The notes under the pieces are model-generated. The model saw only the letters and a list, made by a program, of their open reading frames with translations, was not told where the DNA came from and did no database searches. Both the position numbers and the translations under genes were made by a program. This document shows, one piece after another, positions 47,040 to 64,000 of a DNA stretch of 64,000 bases (positions are counted from its first letter, which is position 1; each line of letters begins with the position of its first letter). This DNA comes from Arthrobacter antibioticus (GTDB taxonomy: Bacteria > Actinomycetota > Actinomycetes > Actinomycetales > Micrococcaceae), in contig NZ_JASISQ010000001.1 in NCBI RefSeq assembly GCF_030063205.1, positions 671,152-735,151 of the forward strand, written 5' to 3'.

Positions 47040-48797
47040 TTAGGCGCCGGAGCAAACACCTGTTTTGGGTAACTCAAGGTGCACCTGATCAGCTGCGGTG
47101 AGATCTCCGGCGAGGGCAGCCACAATGGAACGGACTTGCTCGTAGCCAGTAGCAAGCAGAAAGGTTGGGGCCCGGCCATAGGATTTCATACCCGCAATGT
47201 AGAACTCCTGCTCGGGGTGCGCCAGTTCCTTGGCACCATGGGCGGGGACCGTTCCACAGGAGTGGAATTCGGGATCGATCAAGGGCCCAAGGTCCCGGGG
47301 TGCTTCCACAGCAGGATCCAACTCCAGTCGAAGTTCTCGCAAGATGTCCAGGTCCGGGCGGAACCCGGTGGCGGGGATCAGCACATCTGCCTCAAGGGTT
47401 ACCTCACCATTGACAGTGTTACCTGTGACTTGCAGAGTTCCCCCAGTTTCGCCGGAAGTTTCCATGTTGGAGGTTTCCGTACCGAAGGTAGCTGCACCGG
47501 GCACGCTGGAGAAAGAGAAGGATGTGGTTACAAAGGAGGTGTGCAAGTCGATGTAGCCATCCTTGACGAGCTGGTGCAGGCGATTGCCGAGTTGGCCGCG
47601 GGCCGGCAGGCCGTCAAGGTTTCCACCACCGTAGAGGCGCGAGGCATCGGGGCCCCTGACGGCCCAGCTGATTCGGGTGCCCGGCTCGTTCTTGGCCAGC
47701 TGGCCTAAAGCTAGCAACGTGTTTGCGGCCGAGTGCCCGGCGCCAATAACCAAAACGTGTTTTCCGGCAAATTGGGCGCGCGCTGTGCCGGTGACATCTG
47801 GCAAGGGTGTTGTGATGAGTCCTGCTGCGGTAGCTTCCTTCTCCCCTGCAGCAACCAATCCGCTCTGGCCCAACGGGTTGGGTTGCGCCCAGGTGCCGGA
47901 AGCATCAATCACGGCCCGGACCTGGTGGTCCTGTACAGACCCGTCAGCTGATTCCACCCGGATAAGGAAAGGCTGTTCGGCACGGCCACCTGAACGCGTC
48001 TTGTCCATACCTACCCGGCTCACTGCTGTGACAGTGGAAGAAAAATGCAGGGCATTCTTGATAGCCGGGATGTTAGCAAGCGGTGCCAAATACTCCTGCA
48101 CAAGTTCGCTGCCATATGGCAAGGCTGTCAGCCGGGGTTCACTCCAGCCAGTAGCTTCTAGCAGGCGTCTGGAGGCCGGATCGATGTTGTGCCGCCACGG
48201 TGAAAACAAGCGAATGTGTCCCCACGCCCGGATGGCGGCACCAACGTGCTCCCCTGATTCAAAAATCAGGGGCGTAAGCCCGCGTTGCACCAGATTCGCT
48301 GCAGCGGCTAAACCAATAGGCCCAGCCCCAATGACTGCCACCGGCAACTCAGGTGGCAGGGGTTCAGGTGGCAGGGGTTCAGTGGGCAGGAGTACGGAAA
48401 TGAGGGCAAGGACTCGGGCCTTGATCTCATCACGGATGGCGCGGACAGCCTCAAGCCCCTGCCCTGCAGGGTCGGCGAGTTGCCAGTCTTCGTAGCGCTT
48501 GCCGGGGAACACGGGGCAGGCATCGCCGCAGCCCATGGTGATAACTACGCTGGACTTCTCCACCGCATCAGTGGTGAGGACCTTGGGGATCTGGGCGGCC
48601 ATGTCGATCCCGTCTTCAGCCATGGCGCTCACGGCCGCCGGGTTGATAGAGGCCGCCGGGGCAGAACCAGCGGAGCGTACCTCGATTGCCCCGTGAGACA
48701 GGGCCGTTAGATAAGCGGCAGCCATCTGGGAACGTCCTGCGTTGTGCACACAGACAAACAGAACGGAAGGTAACTTATTAGTTTCGGTAGCGCTCAC
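47040..48797 (-). CDS. Fusion: mycothiol-type arsenate reductase + flavin monooxygenase
   Basis: A 585-residue two-domain protein. Residues ~1-135 are an arsenate reductase of the low-molecular-weight phosphatase fold: P-loop CVHNAGRS (Cys16, Arg22), then MGCGDACPVFPGKRYEDWQL, as in corynebacterial ArsC1/2. A linker at ~136-152 (PTEPLPPEPLPPELP) comes from a 15-bp tandem repeat. Residues ~155-585 are a FAD/NAD(P)H monooxygenase-like domain with GAGPIGLAAAANL and a second Rossmann motif VLVIGAGHSAANTLLAL, like ArsO-type proteins of ars operons. The GTG at 48797 has AAGGAG 9 bases upstream. It follows the ACR3 pump gene and is probably transcribed with it. Confidence 0.88.
   Translation of the reverse strand: MSATETNKLPSVLFVCVHNAGRSQMAAAYLTALSHGAIEVRSAGSAPAASINPAAVSAMAEDGIDMAAQIPKVLTTDAVEKSSVVITMGCGDACPVFPGKRYEDWQLADPAGQGLEAVRAIRDEIKARVLALISVLLPTEPLPPEPLPPELPVAVIGAGPIGLAAAANLVQRGLTPLIFESGEHVGAAIRAWGHIRLFSPWRHNIDPASRRLLEATGWSEPRLTALPYGSELVQEYLAPLANIPAIKNALHFSSTVTAVSRVGMDKTRSGGRAEQPFLIRVESADGSVQDHQVRAVIDASGTWAQPNPLGQSGLVAAGEKEATAAGLITTPLPDVTGTARAQFAGKHVLVIGAGHSAANTLLALGQLAKNEPGTRISWAVRGPDASRLYGGGNLDGLPARGQLGNRLHQLVKDGYIDLHTSFVTTSFSFSSVPGAATFGTETSNMETSGETGGTLQVTGNTVNGEVTLEADVLIPATGFRPDLDILRELRLELDPAVEAPRDLGPLIDPEFHSCGTVPAHGAKELAHPEQEFYIAGMKSYGRAPTFLLATGYEQVRSIVAALAGDLTAADQVHLELPKTGVCSGA
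48351..48395. repeat. 15-bp tandem repeat encoding the fusion linker
   Basis: AGGTGGCAGGGGTTC occurs at 48351-48365 and 48366-48380, with a diverged third unit after it. In the reading frame it encodes the PEPLPPEPLPPE linker between the arsenate reductase and monooxygenase domains. Confidence 0.85.
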
Positions 48798-48864
48798 GAA
48801 TTCATACTCCTTGGTAAAAATGACGGAAATTTTGGGGCACTTGTGGGGCTGCGCTAGTGCTGGT

Positions 48865-49935
48865 TCAGTTGGTAAAAAAGCGGCGACGGGCCCACAGAGC
48901 CACATAAACCAGAGCCACAAGAACAGGCACTTCAATGAGCGGGCCCACAACACCTGCCAGGGCCTGACCGGAGGTGACCCCGAAGGTGCCAATTGCAACG
49001 GCAATGGCGAGCTCAAAGTTGTTCCCCGAAGCCGTGAAAGCCAAGGTGGTGGTTTTGGCATAGCCGAGTTTTAGACTCCGGCCAATGATCATGCCTGCGG
49101 TGAAGGTGACCACAAAGTAGACCAGCAACGGCAGCGCTATCCGCGCCACATTCAGGGGCTGGGAGGTAATTGTTTTCCCCTGTAAAGCAAACAGCAAAGT
49201 AATGGTGAAGAGCAGTCCGTAGAGCGCCCATGGGCCCAGCTTGGGGAGGAACGTTTCTTCATACCAGGACCGCCCCTTGGTCTTTTCGCCAATGGATCGG
49301 GTCAGGAACCCTGCCAGCAGCGGAATCCCTAAGAAGACCAGCACGGCGGCGGTGATGGCCCAGAATGAAAAGTCAGCGGACGCCGTCGGAAGTCCCAGCC
49401 ACCCGGGCAGCACCTGGAGGTAAAACCAGCCCAAAGCACCAAACGCAAACAGCTGGAAGACGGAGTTTAGTAATACAAGAACCGCCGCGGCCTCCCTGTC
49501 TCCGCAGGCAAGATCGTTCCAGATCATGACCATGGCAATGCAGCGGGCCAAGCCCACAATAATCAGCCCTGTGCGGTATTCAGGCAGGTCCGGGACAAAG
49601 ATCCAAGCCAAAAAGAACATGAAAGCTGGGGCCAGTACCCAGTTCAGCACCAAGGAGGTGATCAGTAGCTTACGATCCGCCAAGACTCGGCGCGTCTCGT
49701 TATAGCGCACCCTTGCCAGCACCGGGTACATCATGACCAGCAACCCTATGGCGATCGGCAGCGAGATGGAGCCAATCTTCACGGCATCCAGCGCCATGTT
49801 CAGGCCTGGCACAAAACGTCCCAACAACAGACCTGCGGCCATGGCGGCAATAATCCACACAGGAAGGAACGTATCCAGGGTGGAGAGTTTGCCTGCTACA
49901 GCCTGCTCACCAGAGGTTGTGGTCTGCGTATTCAC
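48865..49935 (-). CDS. acr3: Arsenite efflux transporter ACR3
   Basis: Ten-helix membrane carrier that exports arsenite. The family signature GLARCIAMVMIWNDLACGD contains the Cys needed for arsenite binding, and TASGNNFELAIAVAIGTFG is the later conserved stretch. The start is put at the GTG at 49935 because AGGAG lies 5 bases before it (356 residues); the frame is open to 50070 but that would cross the operators. It leads the operon with the arsenate reductase-monooxygenase gene 67 bases downstream. Two ArsR-like operators lie directly upstream. Confidence 0.93.
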   Translation of the reverse strand: MNTQTTTSGEQAVAGKLSTLDTFLPVWIIAAMAAGLLLGRFVPGLNMALDAVKIGSISLPIAIGLLVMMYPVLARVRYNETRRVLADRKLLITSLVLNWVLAPAFMFFLAWIFVPDLPEYRTGLIIVGLARCIAMVMIWNDLACGDREAAAVLVLLNSVFQLFAFGALGWFYLQVLPGWLGLPTASADFSFWAITAAVLVFLGIPLLAGFLTRSIGEKTKGRSWYEETFLPKLGPWALYGLLFTITLLFALQGKTITSQPLNVARIALPLLVYFVVTFTAGMIIGRSLKLGYAKTTTLAFTASGNNFELAIAVAIGTFGVTSGQALAGVVGPLIEVPVLVALVYVALWARRRFFTN

Positions 49936-49961
49936 AGGGCTCCTCGCCATTAGAACTCTAG

Positions 49962-49977: not shown

Positions 49978-49994
49978 ATGACCAGTTTTAACTC

Positions 49995-50016
49995 TATATT
50001 GATAAATGTCAATATA
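49995..50016. promoter_or_regulatory. Candidate ArsR/SmtB operator 1
   Basis: A perfect inverted repeat TATATTGA-N6-TCAATATA. On the minus strand it contains the hexamer TTGACA (50007-50012), which could be the -35 box of acr3; this is the usual layout for an ArsR repressor that lets go when it binds arsenite. No arsR gene is in this window. Confidence 0.75.
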
Positions 50017-50051
50017 TAGTTGAAGTACGTCGAGGGCCGTGATCATCCAAT

Positions 50052-50084
50052 AAAAATGAGCCCCTCCCACAGGGAGGGGCTCAT
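50052..50084 (-). terminator. Rho-independent terminator after nhaA
   Basis: On the minus strand a perfect 13-bp stem (ATGAGCCCCTCCC with its complement, loop TGT) is followed by five T. It starts 16 bases after the nhaA stop and separates it from the ars operon. Confidence 0.92.
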
Positions 50085-59880: not shown

Positions 59881-60492
59881 ATGCCCGCACTCCACATGCC
59901 CCGTAAGAAAACCATCTTCATTGTTGGGGCATTTCTCGCGGCACTCTTCCTCGCGTGGCTCCTTACGGCTTATCAACTGTTTTACAACGTCCATCCCGCT
60001 TCGGCAAAAAATGCTGATGCGGTAGTTATGTTGGGAGGGGCTAGTAAGGAAAGGCTCTTGGATGCGATGCTGCTGCGCTCCGAACTTGGCGCCAAGTATC
60101 TTGTCATCTCGCAGACTGACACCCCCGGTAATGCAAGCGCGGATGAGTACTGTGACACTCACAGCAACCAAGCAATCTATCCCGACGTTGTGTGCTTTAC
60201 CCCTTCCCCAATGGATACCCGAGGCGAGGCGACGGCGCTGGGCAAATTGGCCACACAACACCACTGGAAAACAATGACCGTAGTGACCTCCAGATACCAC
60301 ATTGAACGGGCTGGCCACCTAATGAGTCAATGCGTTGATTCCAAGGTCACCATGGCATCCACCACCCCGCAATTCTCCACCTGGCAGTGGCTGCGCCGGT
60401 TCGTCATAGAAACCGGCGGTCTCCTCACCGTTTACAGCAATCCCGAGTGTGATTCCCCCGGCCCGCATCAACTGACACCCAGAAATAGCTAG
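59881..60492 (+). CDS. YdcF family membrane protein (DUF218)
   Basis: A 203-residue protein with one N-terminal membrane segment (TIFIVGAFLAALFLAWLLTAY) and a DUF218 domain: VVMLGGASKERLLDAMLL, DTRGEATALGKLA and VVTSRYHIERAGHLM. Relatives include the ElyC/SanA group that affect envelope and polysaccharide synthesis; the activity is not known. It stands between the hydrolase-like gene and wecB, all on one strand. Confidence 0.85.
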   Translation: MPALHMPRKKTIFIVGAFLAALFLAWLLTAYQLFYNVHPASAKNADAVVMLGGASKERLLDAMLLRSELGAKYLVISQTDTPGNASADEYCDTHSNQAIYPDVVCFTPSPMDTRGEATALGKLATQHHWKTMTVVTSRYHIERAGHLMSQCVDSKVTMASTTPQFSTWQWLRRFVIETGGLLTVYSNPECDSPGPHQLTPRNS

Positions 60493-60571
60493 GCAGCACA
60501 CCAAATTCACAAAAATCTAATCGTCAGATAAACTCCATAAAAAGTATCTAACTTTTTCCTTAGGGGGAACT

Positions 60572-61714
60572 ATGCCTGTTGTCATGCCAATATACGGAAC
60601 TCGTCCGGAAGCCATCAAGATGGCTCCAATTGTTGCAGCACTACAGAAGTCCGATATTTTCGACTGCGTTGTAACAGTCACCGGGCAGCACCGCGAAATG
60701 CTGGATCAGGTCAATGAACTATTCGGCATCGTCCCCACTCATGATCTCGATATCCACCAGCCTGGCCAGTCCCTTTCTGACATACTCACACGCACCATCA
60801 CTGGTCTTGATAAGTTGTTTGCAGCCTCCAAACCCGATGTCGTAGTTGTTCAAGGAGATACTGCGACCTCGACAGCAGGTGCAATGGCTGCCTTTTACCG
60901 TGGCATCCCCGTCGTCCACGCCGAGGCGGGTCTGCGGAGCCACAACCTTTTTTCACCGTTTCCAGAGGAAGCAAACCGAAAGATCACCACACAGATCGCC
61001 AGTCTTCACCTTGCTCCTACCAGCACAAGCAAACAGAATCTCCTAAATGAAGGCGTCAACAAGGCCGATATCGTGGTCACTGGAAACACAGTCATCGATG
61101 CCCTTCTGACCACTGTTGATAAGCAGATCACTTTTACAGATCCGGTTCTAGAGGCTCTGGCAAAAAGTGGCAAGCAGATAATGTTGGTAACAACCCATCG
61201 TCGAGAGAATCAGGGCGATGCAATGCGCGGCGTTGGGCGAGCGCTCGCACGCATCGCCCACGCATATCCCGATATGACGATCGTGTTCCCGGCGCATAAG
61301 AACCCTGTTGTTAGACAAGCTGTATTGCCAGCCGTCCAACACAAAAAAAACGTCATAATTACAGAACCACTGGCTTATGGCGAATTTACAAGAATGATCT
61401 CGCTGGCGCACATCGTACTCACGGACTCAGGTGGTGTCCAGGAAGAAGCCCCAAGCCTTGGTAAACCGGTTCTCGTCATGCGGGACAACACCGAACGTCC
61501 TGAAGCTGTGGTCGCTGGCACAGTCAAACTTATCGGCACTGACGAAGACCGCATTGTCACTGAAGTTGAACGGCTGCTGACAGACCAGTCGTACTTCGCG
61601 CAGATGGCAACGGCCGTTAATCCTTATGGCGACGGTATGGCTGCTGAACGCACGGTTAGTGCTATCGCGCATATGCTAAATCTGGGTGAGCGAATTCCCG
61701 ATTTTTCTTCGTAG
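60572..61714 (+). CDS. wecB: UDP-N-acetylglucosamine 2-epimerase
   Basis: Converts UDP-GlcNAc to UDP-ManNAc, used for surface polysaccharides and linkage units. GTRPEAIKMAPIVAALQ at the N-terminus, VVVQGDTATSTAGAMAAFY, VHAEAGLRSHNLFSPFPEE, TTHRRENQGDAM and LTDSGGVQEEAPSLGKPVL complete the family signature. 380 residues. GGGGG lies just before the ATG. Its GC content is normal, but the next gene is AT-rich, so the island border lies after it. Confidence 0.95.
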   Translation: MPVVMPIYGTRPEAIKMAPIVAALQKSDIFDCVVTVTGQHREMLDQVNELFGIVPTHDLDIHQPGQSLSDILTRTITGLDKLFAASKPDVVVVQGDTATSTAGAMAAFYRGIPVVHAEAGLRSHNLFSPFPEEANRKITTQIASLHLAPTSTSKQNLLNEGVNKADIVVTGNTVIDALLTTVDKQITFTDPVLEALAKSGKQIMLVTTHRRENQGDAMRGVGRALARIAHAYPDMTIVFPAHKNPVVRQAVLPAVQHKKNVIITEPLAYGEFTRMISLAHIVLTDSGGVQEEAPSLGKPVLVMRDNTERPEAVVAGTVKLIGTDEDRIVTEVERLLTDQSYFAQMATAVNPYGDGMAAERTVSAIAHMLNLGERIPDFSS

Positions 61715-61768
61715 TTACAACTATTTTATGAAAAATAGACAATATCAGTATGTAACGGGAAGTCAATC

Positions 61769-63124
61769 ATGCCAACTCATCTTATAAATAAAAATCTAAT
61801 TGGTGCGACTTATACCGAATCTGAGCTGATCACCTATCTTTTTTTAGAAAATATTCATCTTAAAAAGGCTTTGTCTTCGGAAATTGAACCTTCCAAGATA
61901 GAGCGACCTAACAGCCACGATACTAACGTAGACTCAAAATTTCATATCGGTAGAGCCTATGTTGACTACAACAGTATTGCAGGAAAAAAACATCTAATTA
62001 TTGCAAACGAATATCCGAACTATGGGGCGGAATACGGTAATGGTTTCGTTCACCGCCGAGTAGAATACTATAAACAATACGGTGCACAGGTTGACGTTGT
62101 CGCTTTTGGAAAACGTTTACCCCAAAAAATATATGAATATAAAGATGTAAAAGTTCTATCCGGCTATGTAAATGAACTTTTGTATCTACTTTCTACACAA
62201 GAATATGAGTCGGTTAGCGTTCACTTTCTCAACCATGAAATGTGGAACGTTCTTAATCCCTTCCTCAAAGACCTGAACCTCTTTGTCTATCTTCATGGGT
62301 ACGAAGTAAATCGGTGGGTACGCAGAATCTTCGAATACAACACAACCGAGGAACTCACCGGAAACATTGAAAGAACCTTGCAACTTCAAAGATTCTGGAA
62401 GCATGTGGTTGGTCATCAATATGGCCCGAGAAAATTTATCTTTGTTTCTAAGTGGTGGCAAGATGCTGTCACTGAAGACATGGAACTTACTTTTCCAAAA
62501 AAACGAACTGAAATAGTGCACAATTTTATTGATACCAAACTCTTCAGTTTTGTGCCCAAGGATATTAATCAAAGATATAATCTTTTATGGGTAAGGAGTG
62601 CCGACGCAAGAAAATATGGCAACGATTTAGCCATCGGGTGTCTTCGTATTCTTCAGAGATCAAAGTACTGGCATATATTAAAAATAACTATAATAGGTAA
62701 TGGAAAATATTTCCACGAATTCCAAGATGCATTTGTCAATCAATCAAACGTCTCAATTCAACAGAAGTTTGTTTCGCAGGAGGAGATAGCAGCTCTCCAT
62801 AAGACAAATGGAATATTCTTAGTCCCCAGCCGCCTTGACTCTCAAGGCGTTTCCAGAGATGAGGCTATGTCGTCCGGTCTTATTGCTGTGACAAATTCAG
62901 TGACGGCAATTCCAGAATTTATAGATTCAAATACCGGAGTGGTTGCTCCACCAGAGGATGCACAATTTATGGCCGACGAAATAATACGCATATTTGAAAA
63001 TCCCGCATTGTTTGACCAATTGTCCAAAGCAGCAGCTCTCAGGGCTAGGTCACAATGCGGCGAACAACAGACTGTGAAACGTGAGGCCGAAATTATGGGA
63101 ATTCTTGGTGGTTCAAGACGATGA
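61769..63124 (+). CDS. Glycosyltransferase, GT4-like
   Basis: A 451-residue GT-B-type glycosyltransferase. The C-terminal half has the retaining-GT motif FLVPSRLDSQGVSRDEAMSSG, followed by VTAIPEFIDSNTGVVAPPED, in place of the usual E-x7-E nucleotide-sugar site. The N-terminal half has HLIIANEYPNYGAEYGNGFV, a common start of GT4 enzymes. The DNA is clearly AT-rich with A/T-ending codons, unlike the upstream genes, which points to transfer. It overlaps the next gene by four bases (ATGA). Confidence 0.82.
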   Translation: MPTHLINKNLIGATYTESELITYLFLENIHLKKALSSEIEPSKIERPNSHDTNVDSKFHIGRAYVDYNSIAGKKHLIIANEYPNYGAEYGNGFVHRRVEYYKQYGAQVDVVAFGKRLPQKIYEYKDVKVLSGYVNELLYLLSTQEYESVSVHFLNHEMWNVLNPFLKDLNLFVYLHGYEVNRWVRRIFEYNTTEELTGNIERTLQLQRFWKHVVGHQYGPRKFIFVSKWWQDAVTEDMELTFPKKRTEIVHNFIDTKLFSFVPKDINQRYNLLWVRSADARKYGNDLAIGCLRILQRSKYWHILKITIIGNGKYFHEFQDAFVNQSNVSIQQKFVSQEEIAALHKTNGIFLVPSRLDSQGVSRDEAMSSGLIAVTNSVTAIPEFIDSNTGVVAPPEDAQFMADEIIRIFENPALFDQLSKAAALRARSQCGEQQTVKREAEIMGILGGSRR

Positions 63125-64000
63125 GTAGTCTCATTTTTGTCAGCCAAATTGGTGCTGTAGAAGGGAATCTTTTTACTGCCCTCAAGCACAGTGAAGATTT
63201 CGTCATTTTCTACGATATTGTAGAGAATAGATTTTATCCAGAAAATATAATTCCTGCTAACACTTGGATAAGTCAGACATTTGTTAATAGTGAACACTTA
63301 TTACTGTCTCGCTATTTTAGTCAACTGATAGAAACACATAAAATTGATCACGTCTTCGCTATTGGTATTGAGGCCATAATATACGCAAACTCAAATATTG
63401 ACTCCCACGACGTGATTGCGCTGGTTATGAAGGGCGAACTGGACTTCAGTATTAGGCGCACGGGTCTGCTTGAAAGATTTATGAAGGCTGTAACGAACTC
63501 TAAACGACTCTTTTTTGAAGATACCTGGGAAATGGATAAAGCGAGTGCCCATGGATCAGAAGTACCGCACTTTGTTTATCCTCTCTTCATTCAACCAAAA
63601 AATCGAATATTGGACCACAACCGCAAGAATACGAAAATTGCCATTATTGAACCTACTGTTGATACAGATAGCGATTTGGAAGTCCGCATAAATCTATACC
63701 AAGAGCAGTTACTGAGTCATGGCTTCGAAATAAAACGCATCAAAGCACGTGATTTATATACGAAGTTAGATCTTTCTACCGGTCGAACATTCCCCGCTAC
63801 AATGCGTTACAGAATCGGAGATTGCTCACACGCCATTTTGATTGGTGATTCAAGGAACGGAAATTCTATATTAGCTGGTCTTTCAGAAGATGCAGAATAT
63901 TTATATGCGGAAGATACATTTAATACGAGCCTTATTCTTAGTAAAGACGAATTTCCAAATTATGCCAACGCTGTTTCACTCATAAATCGTTTAGTGGGCG
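63121..64000 (+). CDS. Unknown protein of the polysaccharide island, cut by window end
   Basis: Starts at the ATG at 63121 (MSSLIFVSQIGAVEGNLF...), overlapping the glycosyltransferase stop, and stays open to the last base, so the C-terminus is missing. About 293 residues are visible. I do not recognise the family. Stretches such as KIAIIEPTVDTDSDLEVRI and HAILIGDSRNGNSILAGL could be Rossmann-like strands of a glycosyltransferase, but no diagnostic motif is present. AT-rich codon use as in the gene before it. Confidence 0.7.
   Translation, partial: MSSLIFVSQIGAVEGNLFTALKHSEDFVIFYDIVENRFYPENIIPANTWISQTFVNSEHLLLSRYFSQLIETHKIDHVFAIGIEAIIYANSNIDSHDVIALVMKGELDFSIRRTGLLERFMKAVTNSKRLFFEDTWEMDKASAHGSEVPHFVYPLFIQPKNRILDHNRKNTKIAIIEPTVDTDSDLEVRINLYQEQLLSHGFEIKRIKARDLYTKLDLSTGRTFPATMRYRIGDCSHAILIGDSRNGNSILAGLSEDAEYLYAEDTFNTSLILSKDEFPNYANAVSLINRLVG

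Follow-up and report, generated by a model that had tools for sequence, protein, structure and literature searches.

An arsenate reductase fused in frame to a FAD/NAD(P)H enzyme of ars loci in Arthrobacter antibioticus

The stretch of the Arthrobacter antibioticus genome analysed here (the window; 64,000 nucleotides of contig NZ_JASISQ010000001.1) carries, directly behind the arsenite efflux gene acr3, a single open frame in which an arsenate reductase, ArsC, is joined to an oxidoreductase of the FAD/NAD(P)H type. The fused gene (47040..48797, minus strand) starts with GTG at 48797, ends with TAA at 47040 and encodes 585 amino acids; a ribosome-binding site, AAGGAG, can be read 9 nt ahead of the GTG (48807..48812, minus strand). 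The fusion of the two enzymes on one chain is confirmed. On balance we favour the view that it is a recent in-frame fusion of a co-transcribed arsC and an ars-locus flavoenzyme behind acr3, giving two tethered arsenic enzymes and no channel for a thiol-bound intermediate. The ArsC half would reduce arsenate to arsenite with thioredoxin, ACR3 would export the arsenite, and the flavin half, using NAD(P)H and FAD, may act on an arsenical or antimonial in the trivalent state that is bound by its cysteines. The linker would hold the two enzymes at a ratio of 1:1 without channelling a thiol-bound arsenic intermediate.

An earlier note on this DNA had described one frame with an intact CX5R ArsC joined to a flavin domain, and the elements it named, Cys16 and Arg22 (CVHNAGR) and the segment GCGDACPVFPG, are present. 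It had also considered that a sequencing error might hide a stop codon between the domains. Such an error, in sequencing or assembly, is hardly credible: although a stop separates the domains in 33 of the 36 double-domain rows among the matches listed, the frame is likewise open in G128, a sister assembly from this species, at 99% identity despite a differently spelled linker, and the start site that usually precedes the flavin gene is missing here. The window and G128 differ in 2 of 137 ArsC codons, in 3 of 13 linker codons, and by five synonymous and three non-synonymous changes in the flavin half; the two strains are very close. Residue 23 of ArsC, just after the P-loop arginine, is Ala in G128 (L065:4843-5256) and Ser in the window.

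Two overlapping or separately started genes could be ruled out, since no start site precedes the flavin half. A Shine-Dalgarno-like word with an in-frame ATG or GTG stands near the start of the flavin protein in 134 of 141 distinct unfused relatives, and no such site was found in the window, in G128 or in a further fusion from another genus (L158); a third fusion (L034) has a weak TTG candidate start before the flavin half. In its own genome nothing but the fusion matches P0001 at E 1e-10, with 4 of 17 candidates scored. A reserve ArsC elsewhere in the genome was rejected: both other matches to Pfam LMWPc read as ordinary small phosphatases.

The ArsC domain itself (residues 12-133; 48399..48764, minus strand) scores 66.9 bits against LMWPc (cut-off 23.2) and contains the CX5R P-loop of the low-molecular-weight phosphatase fold (C16-R22). 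The fused protein has exactly five cysteines, at positions 16, 90, 94, 514 and 582. The first three align with the three catalytic cysteines of the best solved relative, 3t38 (E 3.2e-39), whose PDB title is thioredoxin-dependent arsenate reductase Cg_ArsC1'; PMC6514093 gives these as C88, C162 and C166. By this alignment the ArsC half is a member of the three-cysteine thioredoxin class, although NCBIfam TIGR02691, with 77.1 bits against a cut-off of 174.3, does not place it among the pI258-type equivalogs. Cg_ArsC1' is not known as a flavoenzyme fusion and has another N-terminal part, the match beginning at its residue 79. The mycothiol class, to which the earlier note had assigned the domain, was rejected. 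3rh0, which we take to represent that class (the Cg_ArsC2 residues named in PMC6514093 agree), matches the window ArsC more weakly (E 3.2e-22), and the marks of the class, an N-G-G active-site loop as in Cg_ArsC2 and no GCGDxCP pair, are replaced in the window by CVHNAGR and GCGDACP. The ArsC of the L034 fusion, on the other hand, matches 3rh0 at E 4e-41 and so falls into the mycothiol class.

The linker, TEPLPPEPLPPE (residues 139-150; 48348..48383, minus strand), has a predicted local distance difference test score (pLDDT) below 50 at residues 140-148. The 15-bp tandem repeat that the earlier note had recognised here was confirmed as an array of 2.8 copies (48349-48390), but its suggestion that linker length may vary between strains was not borne out in the two strains seen, in which length is equal and sequence alone differs: the G128 linker consists of two exact copies of CTCCTGCCCACTGAA followed by CCCCTGCCACCTGAG. 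The first linker unit encodes LLPTE, many unfused ArsC proteins finish in LLP and one to three further residues, and the linker leads into ELPVAV, with which the flavin domain usually begins. The linker looks like tandem copies of the last arsC codons. The stop of arsC may have been lost when the final five codons of that gene (LLPTE) were copied in tandem and became joined to the conserved ELPVAV.

Full-length matches over both domains, the check that the earlier note had proposed, revealed three distinct fusions: that of the window and G128, L034 and L158. The 36 double-domain rows came from 295 genomes of the family; the 33 mentioned above have one or two stops between the domains and the three stop-free rows are the own genome, G128 and G251 (L034). 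A survey of 396 genomes of the order gave one further stop-free row, G588 (L054/L158), and the genomes sampled from the class (394) and from the phylum (396) added none to the list. Listing stopped at E 1e-10 for the family, 1e-120 for the order and class, 1e-90 for the phylum and 1e-110 to 1e-130 for single genera, so weaker fusions could be missed. In the own genus the fusion is present in 2 of 23 genomes, both of the own species; in the genus of G588 it is present in 1 of 57 and in that of G251 in 1 of 27. Homologues are not always two genes, as they would be had the note's other refuting case applied: four stop-free rows were listed, though in most of the double-domain relatives seen the domains are encoded by two neighbouring genes. 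One such two-gene relative in the same genus, L012 (G263), has its flavin match in two frames, and the gene looks broken inside the domain; alignment A3 was made without this frameshifted fragment, and A4 takes only the ArsC of L012.

The genome scan found at least 589 stretches encoding the flavin family. The best 80 of these, which hence lean to close relatives, are referred to here as the named loci. None of them holds a fusion, with the reservation that the sequence of L131 breaks off where the flavin gene begins and so does not reveal whether it is fused. In 29 of the 80 an arsC gene precedes the flavin gene and ends no more than 300 nt from it; 8 of these 29 pairs share the same phase, which is about the chance third. 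The starred branches of a tree built from 149 flavin proteins cannot be reconciled with fewer than three changes between the fused and the unfused state. Three separate gains are the probable explanation, preferred over one gain and two losses because the junctions of L054 and L034 differ from that of the window and one ArsC is of another class. The fused flavin proteins sit on branches of 0.19 (window pair), 0.26 (L158) and 0.42 (L034). These seem to exceed in length the branches of most near neighbours, and change may have been faster after fusion.

It could be argued that the fusion is neutral or only slightly useful, the two enzymes working no differently from their unfused counterparts and the tether providing nothing but shared expression. 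The sporadic occurrence within each of the three genera, the chance rate of shared phase among close arsC-flavin pairs and the long branches would all fit this explanation. We consider it unlikely, as the separate fusions are each short-tailed (see below), a hint at more than chance, albeit with n=3.

Residues 151-583 (47049..48347, minus strand) form the flavin half, a domain of the FAD/NAD(P)H oxidoreductase type with the invariant Cys514 and Cys582 and without the usual cysteine-rich tail. Pfam Pyr_redox_3 gives 45.3 bits (cut-off 30), the FAD/NAD(P) oxidoreductase match beginning at about residue 153, and Lys_Orn_oxgnase gives 22.4 bits (cut-off 21.3). Two dinucleotide-binding Rossmann folds are present, with the motifs GAGPIG and GAGHSA that the earlier note had pointed to, and fold comparison agrees. 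Conservation in 95% or more of 145 unfused rows is found at 117 columns. All of these are unchanged in the window, in G128 and in L158, and because of this the flavin half looks functional in these fusions; in L034 five of the 117 are changed.

What kind of flavoenzyme this is can be narrowed by exclusion. Class B flavin monooxygenases carry the signature FxGxxxHxxx[YFW]. It is lacking in all 157 matches, so a classical flavin monooxygenase was rejected. The description 'monooxygenase-like' given by the earlier note is right as far as the fold and a single Pfam model (Lys_Orn_oxgnase) go, but not by signature, and disulfide reductases share the fold. Membership of ArsO was likewise rejected: the NCBI model NF040505 scores 46.8 bits on the flavin half, far under its cut-off of 425, and 39.1-59.2 bits on seven further members of the family, which include two fusions and some end-clipped sequences. 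As regards the note's remark on neighbouring arsC and arsO-type genes, arsC and a flavin gene are often adjacent, but the ArsO label was not confirmed. ArsO and the flavin half are both ars-locus FAD/NAD(P)H enzymes with distant similarity, and on pREL1 of R. erythropolis a flavin-family gene is two genes away from a 346-aa oxidoreductase, which we take for ArsO by length only. ArsV, said to have been described by Zhang in 2022 as a flavin monooxygenase oxidising organoarsenicals and antimonite, resembles our enzyme by description only, as an arsenic-linked flavin enzyme of soil bacteria. Among solved folds the closest is 7a76, the bacillithiol disulfide reductase Bdr/YpdA, which leads the families ranked after it by about 5 Z units. 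Nevertheless TIGR04018 reaches 39.6 bits on the flavin half against a cut-off of 339.9, and the cysteine Cys14 in GGGPCG, catalytic in Bdr according to PMC6591457, has no counterpart in the flavin family, whose profile at this place reads GaGPvG. The CxxC redox pair of low-molecular-weight thioredoxin reductase is absent too, Cys514 and Cys582 being the only cysteines of the flavin half.

These two cysteines are conserved in 149 of 149 rows. Behind them most family members extend into a tail, which contains a CC pair in 137 of 144 unfused proteins. In the three fusions the tail has 3, 13 and 17 residues against a median of 53 in the 144 unfused members (raw counts that ignore kinship), although tails of at most 17 residues also occur in 12 of the 144. 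L143, which ends in AGVC and keeps the cysteine, fell outside the tail count by its pattern. The unfused L130 and L083 are nearly tailless, with SG and SATA. Many tails (L013, L009, L010, L016, L074 and others) finish in a conserved peptide of the type PEPxxxGxPTGLxHGR behind a variable CC-rich stretch, and a TG-x-HG motif is found in 82 of the 144. Just before Cys582, residues 576-580 (47058-47072) read LPKTG, or LPETG in most relatives seen, which is reminiscent of a sortase signal; it is probably merely a conserved part of the flavin family, since only VCSGA follows in the window.

The company kept by the family points to arsenic. Genes of the ars type lie near the flavin gene in 76 of the 80 named loci (ArsR in 74, any ArsC in 61, ACR3 in 35; these counts have no random-locus comparison beside them). 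At 19 loci there is no arsC within 5 kb, some contigs ending inside that distance, and at 17 ArsR or a transporter (major facilitator superfamily included) is present and ArsC absent. On an Ensifer plasmid the order is arsR, flavin gene, arsK, with an adjoining gene annotated as 'arsenate reductase (azurin) large subunit' and no arsC-type gene in the stretch listed. In the plasmid records seen, 'NAD(P)-binding', 'FAD-dependent oxidoreductase' and similar terms are the sole annotations of the flavin family. The flavin gene itself has the look of an arsenic gene, and the fusion is therefore most likely a tether between two arsenic enzymes. The association with ArsR and ArsK, together with the CC tails, leads us to prefer arsenicals or antimonials in the trivalent state as the compounds on which it would act. 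The ArsR proteins of two loci (L156:2974-3321, GCCPP, and L155:3006-3356, ECCPL) have an N-terminal CC pair, like that of the flavin tails.

The main rival to two tethered arsenic enzymes is a self-contained, NADPH-driven arsenate reductase, in which the flavin half would re-reduce the Cys90-Cys94 disulfide of its own ArsC and thioredoxin would not be needed; the CC tail would normally be a mobile dithiol arm, here replaced by the tethered ArsC. The relationship in fold to Bdr, an NADPH-dependent disulfide reductase, the two invariant cysteines, the short tails of the fusions and the frequency with which arsC closely precedes the flavin gene would all be accommodated. We nevertheless regard it as rather improbable. 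The family has no cysteine at the place of the catalytic Cys14 of Bdr, a TrxB-like gene lies within 5 kb at 14 of the 80 loci while others show no arsC there, and some unfused members are just as short-tailed. Moreover, L034 has an ArsC of the mycothiol class, for which the route described is via a mycothiol conjugate and not a disulfide of the Cys90-Cys94 type. In the boldest form of this rival, likewise rather improbable, the flavin enzyme is a new kind of ars-locus thiol reductase that normally uses a mobile CC tail and in the fusion passes electrons straight to the tethered ArsC. The short tails of all three fusions would be explained, because fusion would make the tail dispensable.

The earlier note had proposed that a thiol-bound arsenic intermediate is handed from ArsC to the monooxygenase domain. 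Apart from the presence of both domains on one chain we found no support for such a channel, and it is very improbable because the ArsC is of the thioredoxin class. In the mechanism of pI258 ArsC, which is of this class, arsenite departs before the disulfide is reduced, so that free arsenite and no bound intermediate would be released. To re-oxidise it would be futile, the monooxygenase signature is lacking in all 157 matches and 19 of the 80 flavin loci show no arsC within 5 kb.

Fusions of ArsC with other ars proteins are known. In the available portions of PMC6205960 and PMC6514093 the fusions ArsR-ArsC, ACR3-ArsC, aquaporin-ArsC and ArsN-ArsC or ArsN-ArsD (the former source) and clusters with ACR3-ArsC and ArsR-ArsC (the latter) are described; neither these portions nor the literature search results contained an ArsC-flavoenzyme fusion. 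In the known ArsC fusions a small ArsC is likewise joined in frame to an ars protein, whereas the partner here is a FAD/NAD(P)H enzyme. The portion of PMC6205960 also states that the functions of ArsO and ArsT are undeciphered. Although rare, the fusion seems to have arisen at least three times, and such recurrence suggests that arsenate reductase is functionally linked to this flavin family, which is common near ars genes. It draws attention to a widespread, cysteine-tailed and little-studied flavin enzyme and offers a compact handle on its role: one protein, five cysteines and one NADPH assay.

The acr3 gene upstream (48865..49950, minus strand) scores 420.5 bits with NCBIfam TIGR00832 (cut-off 282.8); the ATG at 49950 is our choice of start, the list of open reading frames beginning at a GTG at 50070. 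Upstream of acr3 lies an inverted repeat without strand (49987..50024) with 16-nt arms and a 6-nt spacer, the probable ArsR operator of the acr3-fusion unit. A terminator-like hairpin of 13 pairs (50056..50084, minus strand) after nhaA divides that gene from the acr3-fusion unit; four such sites were found in the whole window against 3.1 expected in shuffles. An ArsR homologue with 71% identity to an ars-cluster ArsR is encoded elsewhere in the genome. This best homologue (L169:4326-4883) is located away from acr3 beside genes that we read as dnaK-, grpE- and dnaJ-like, and has an Ala/Ser repeat, LASSALASSALAS, ahead of its DNA-binding part. Finally, positions 60001-64000 of the window have a G+C content of 0.446 against 0.55-0.61 in the remainder, and are possibly foreign DNA.
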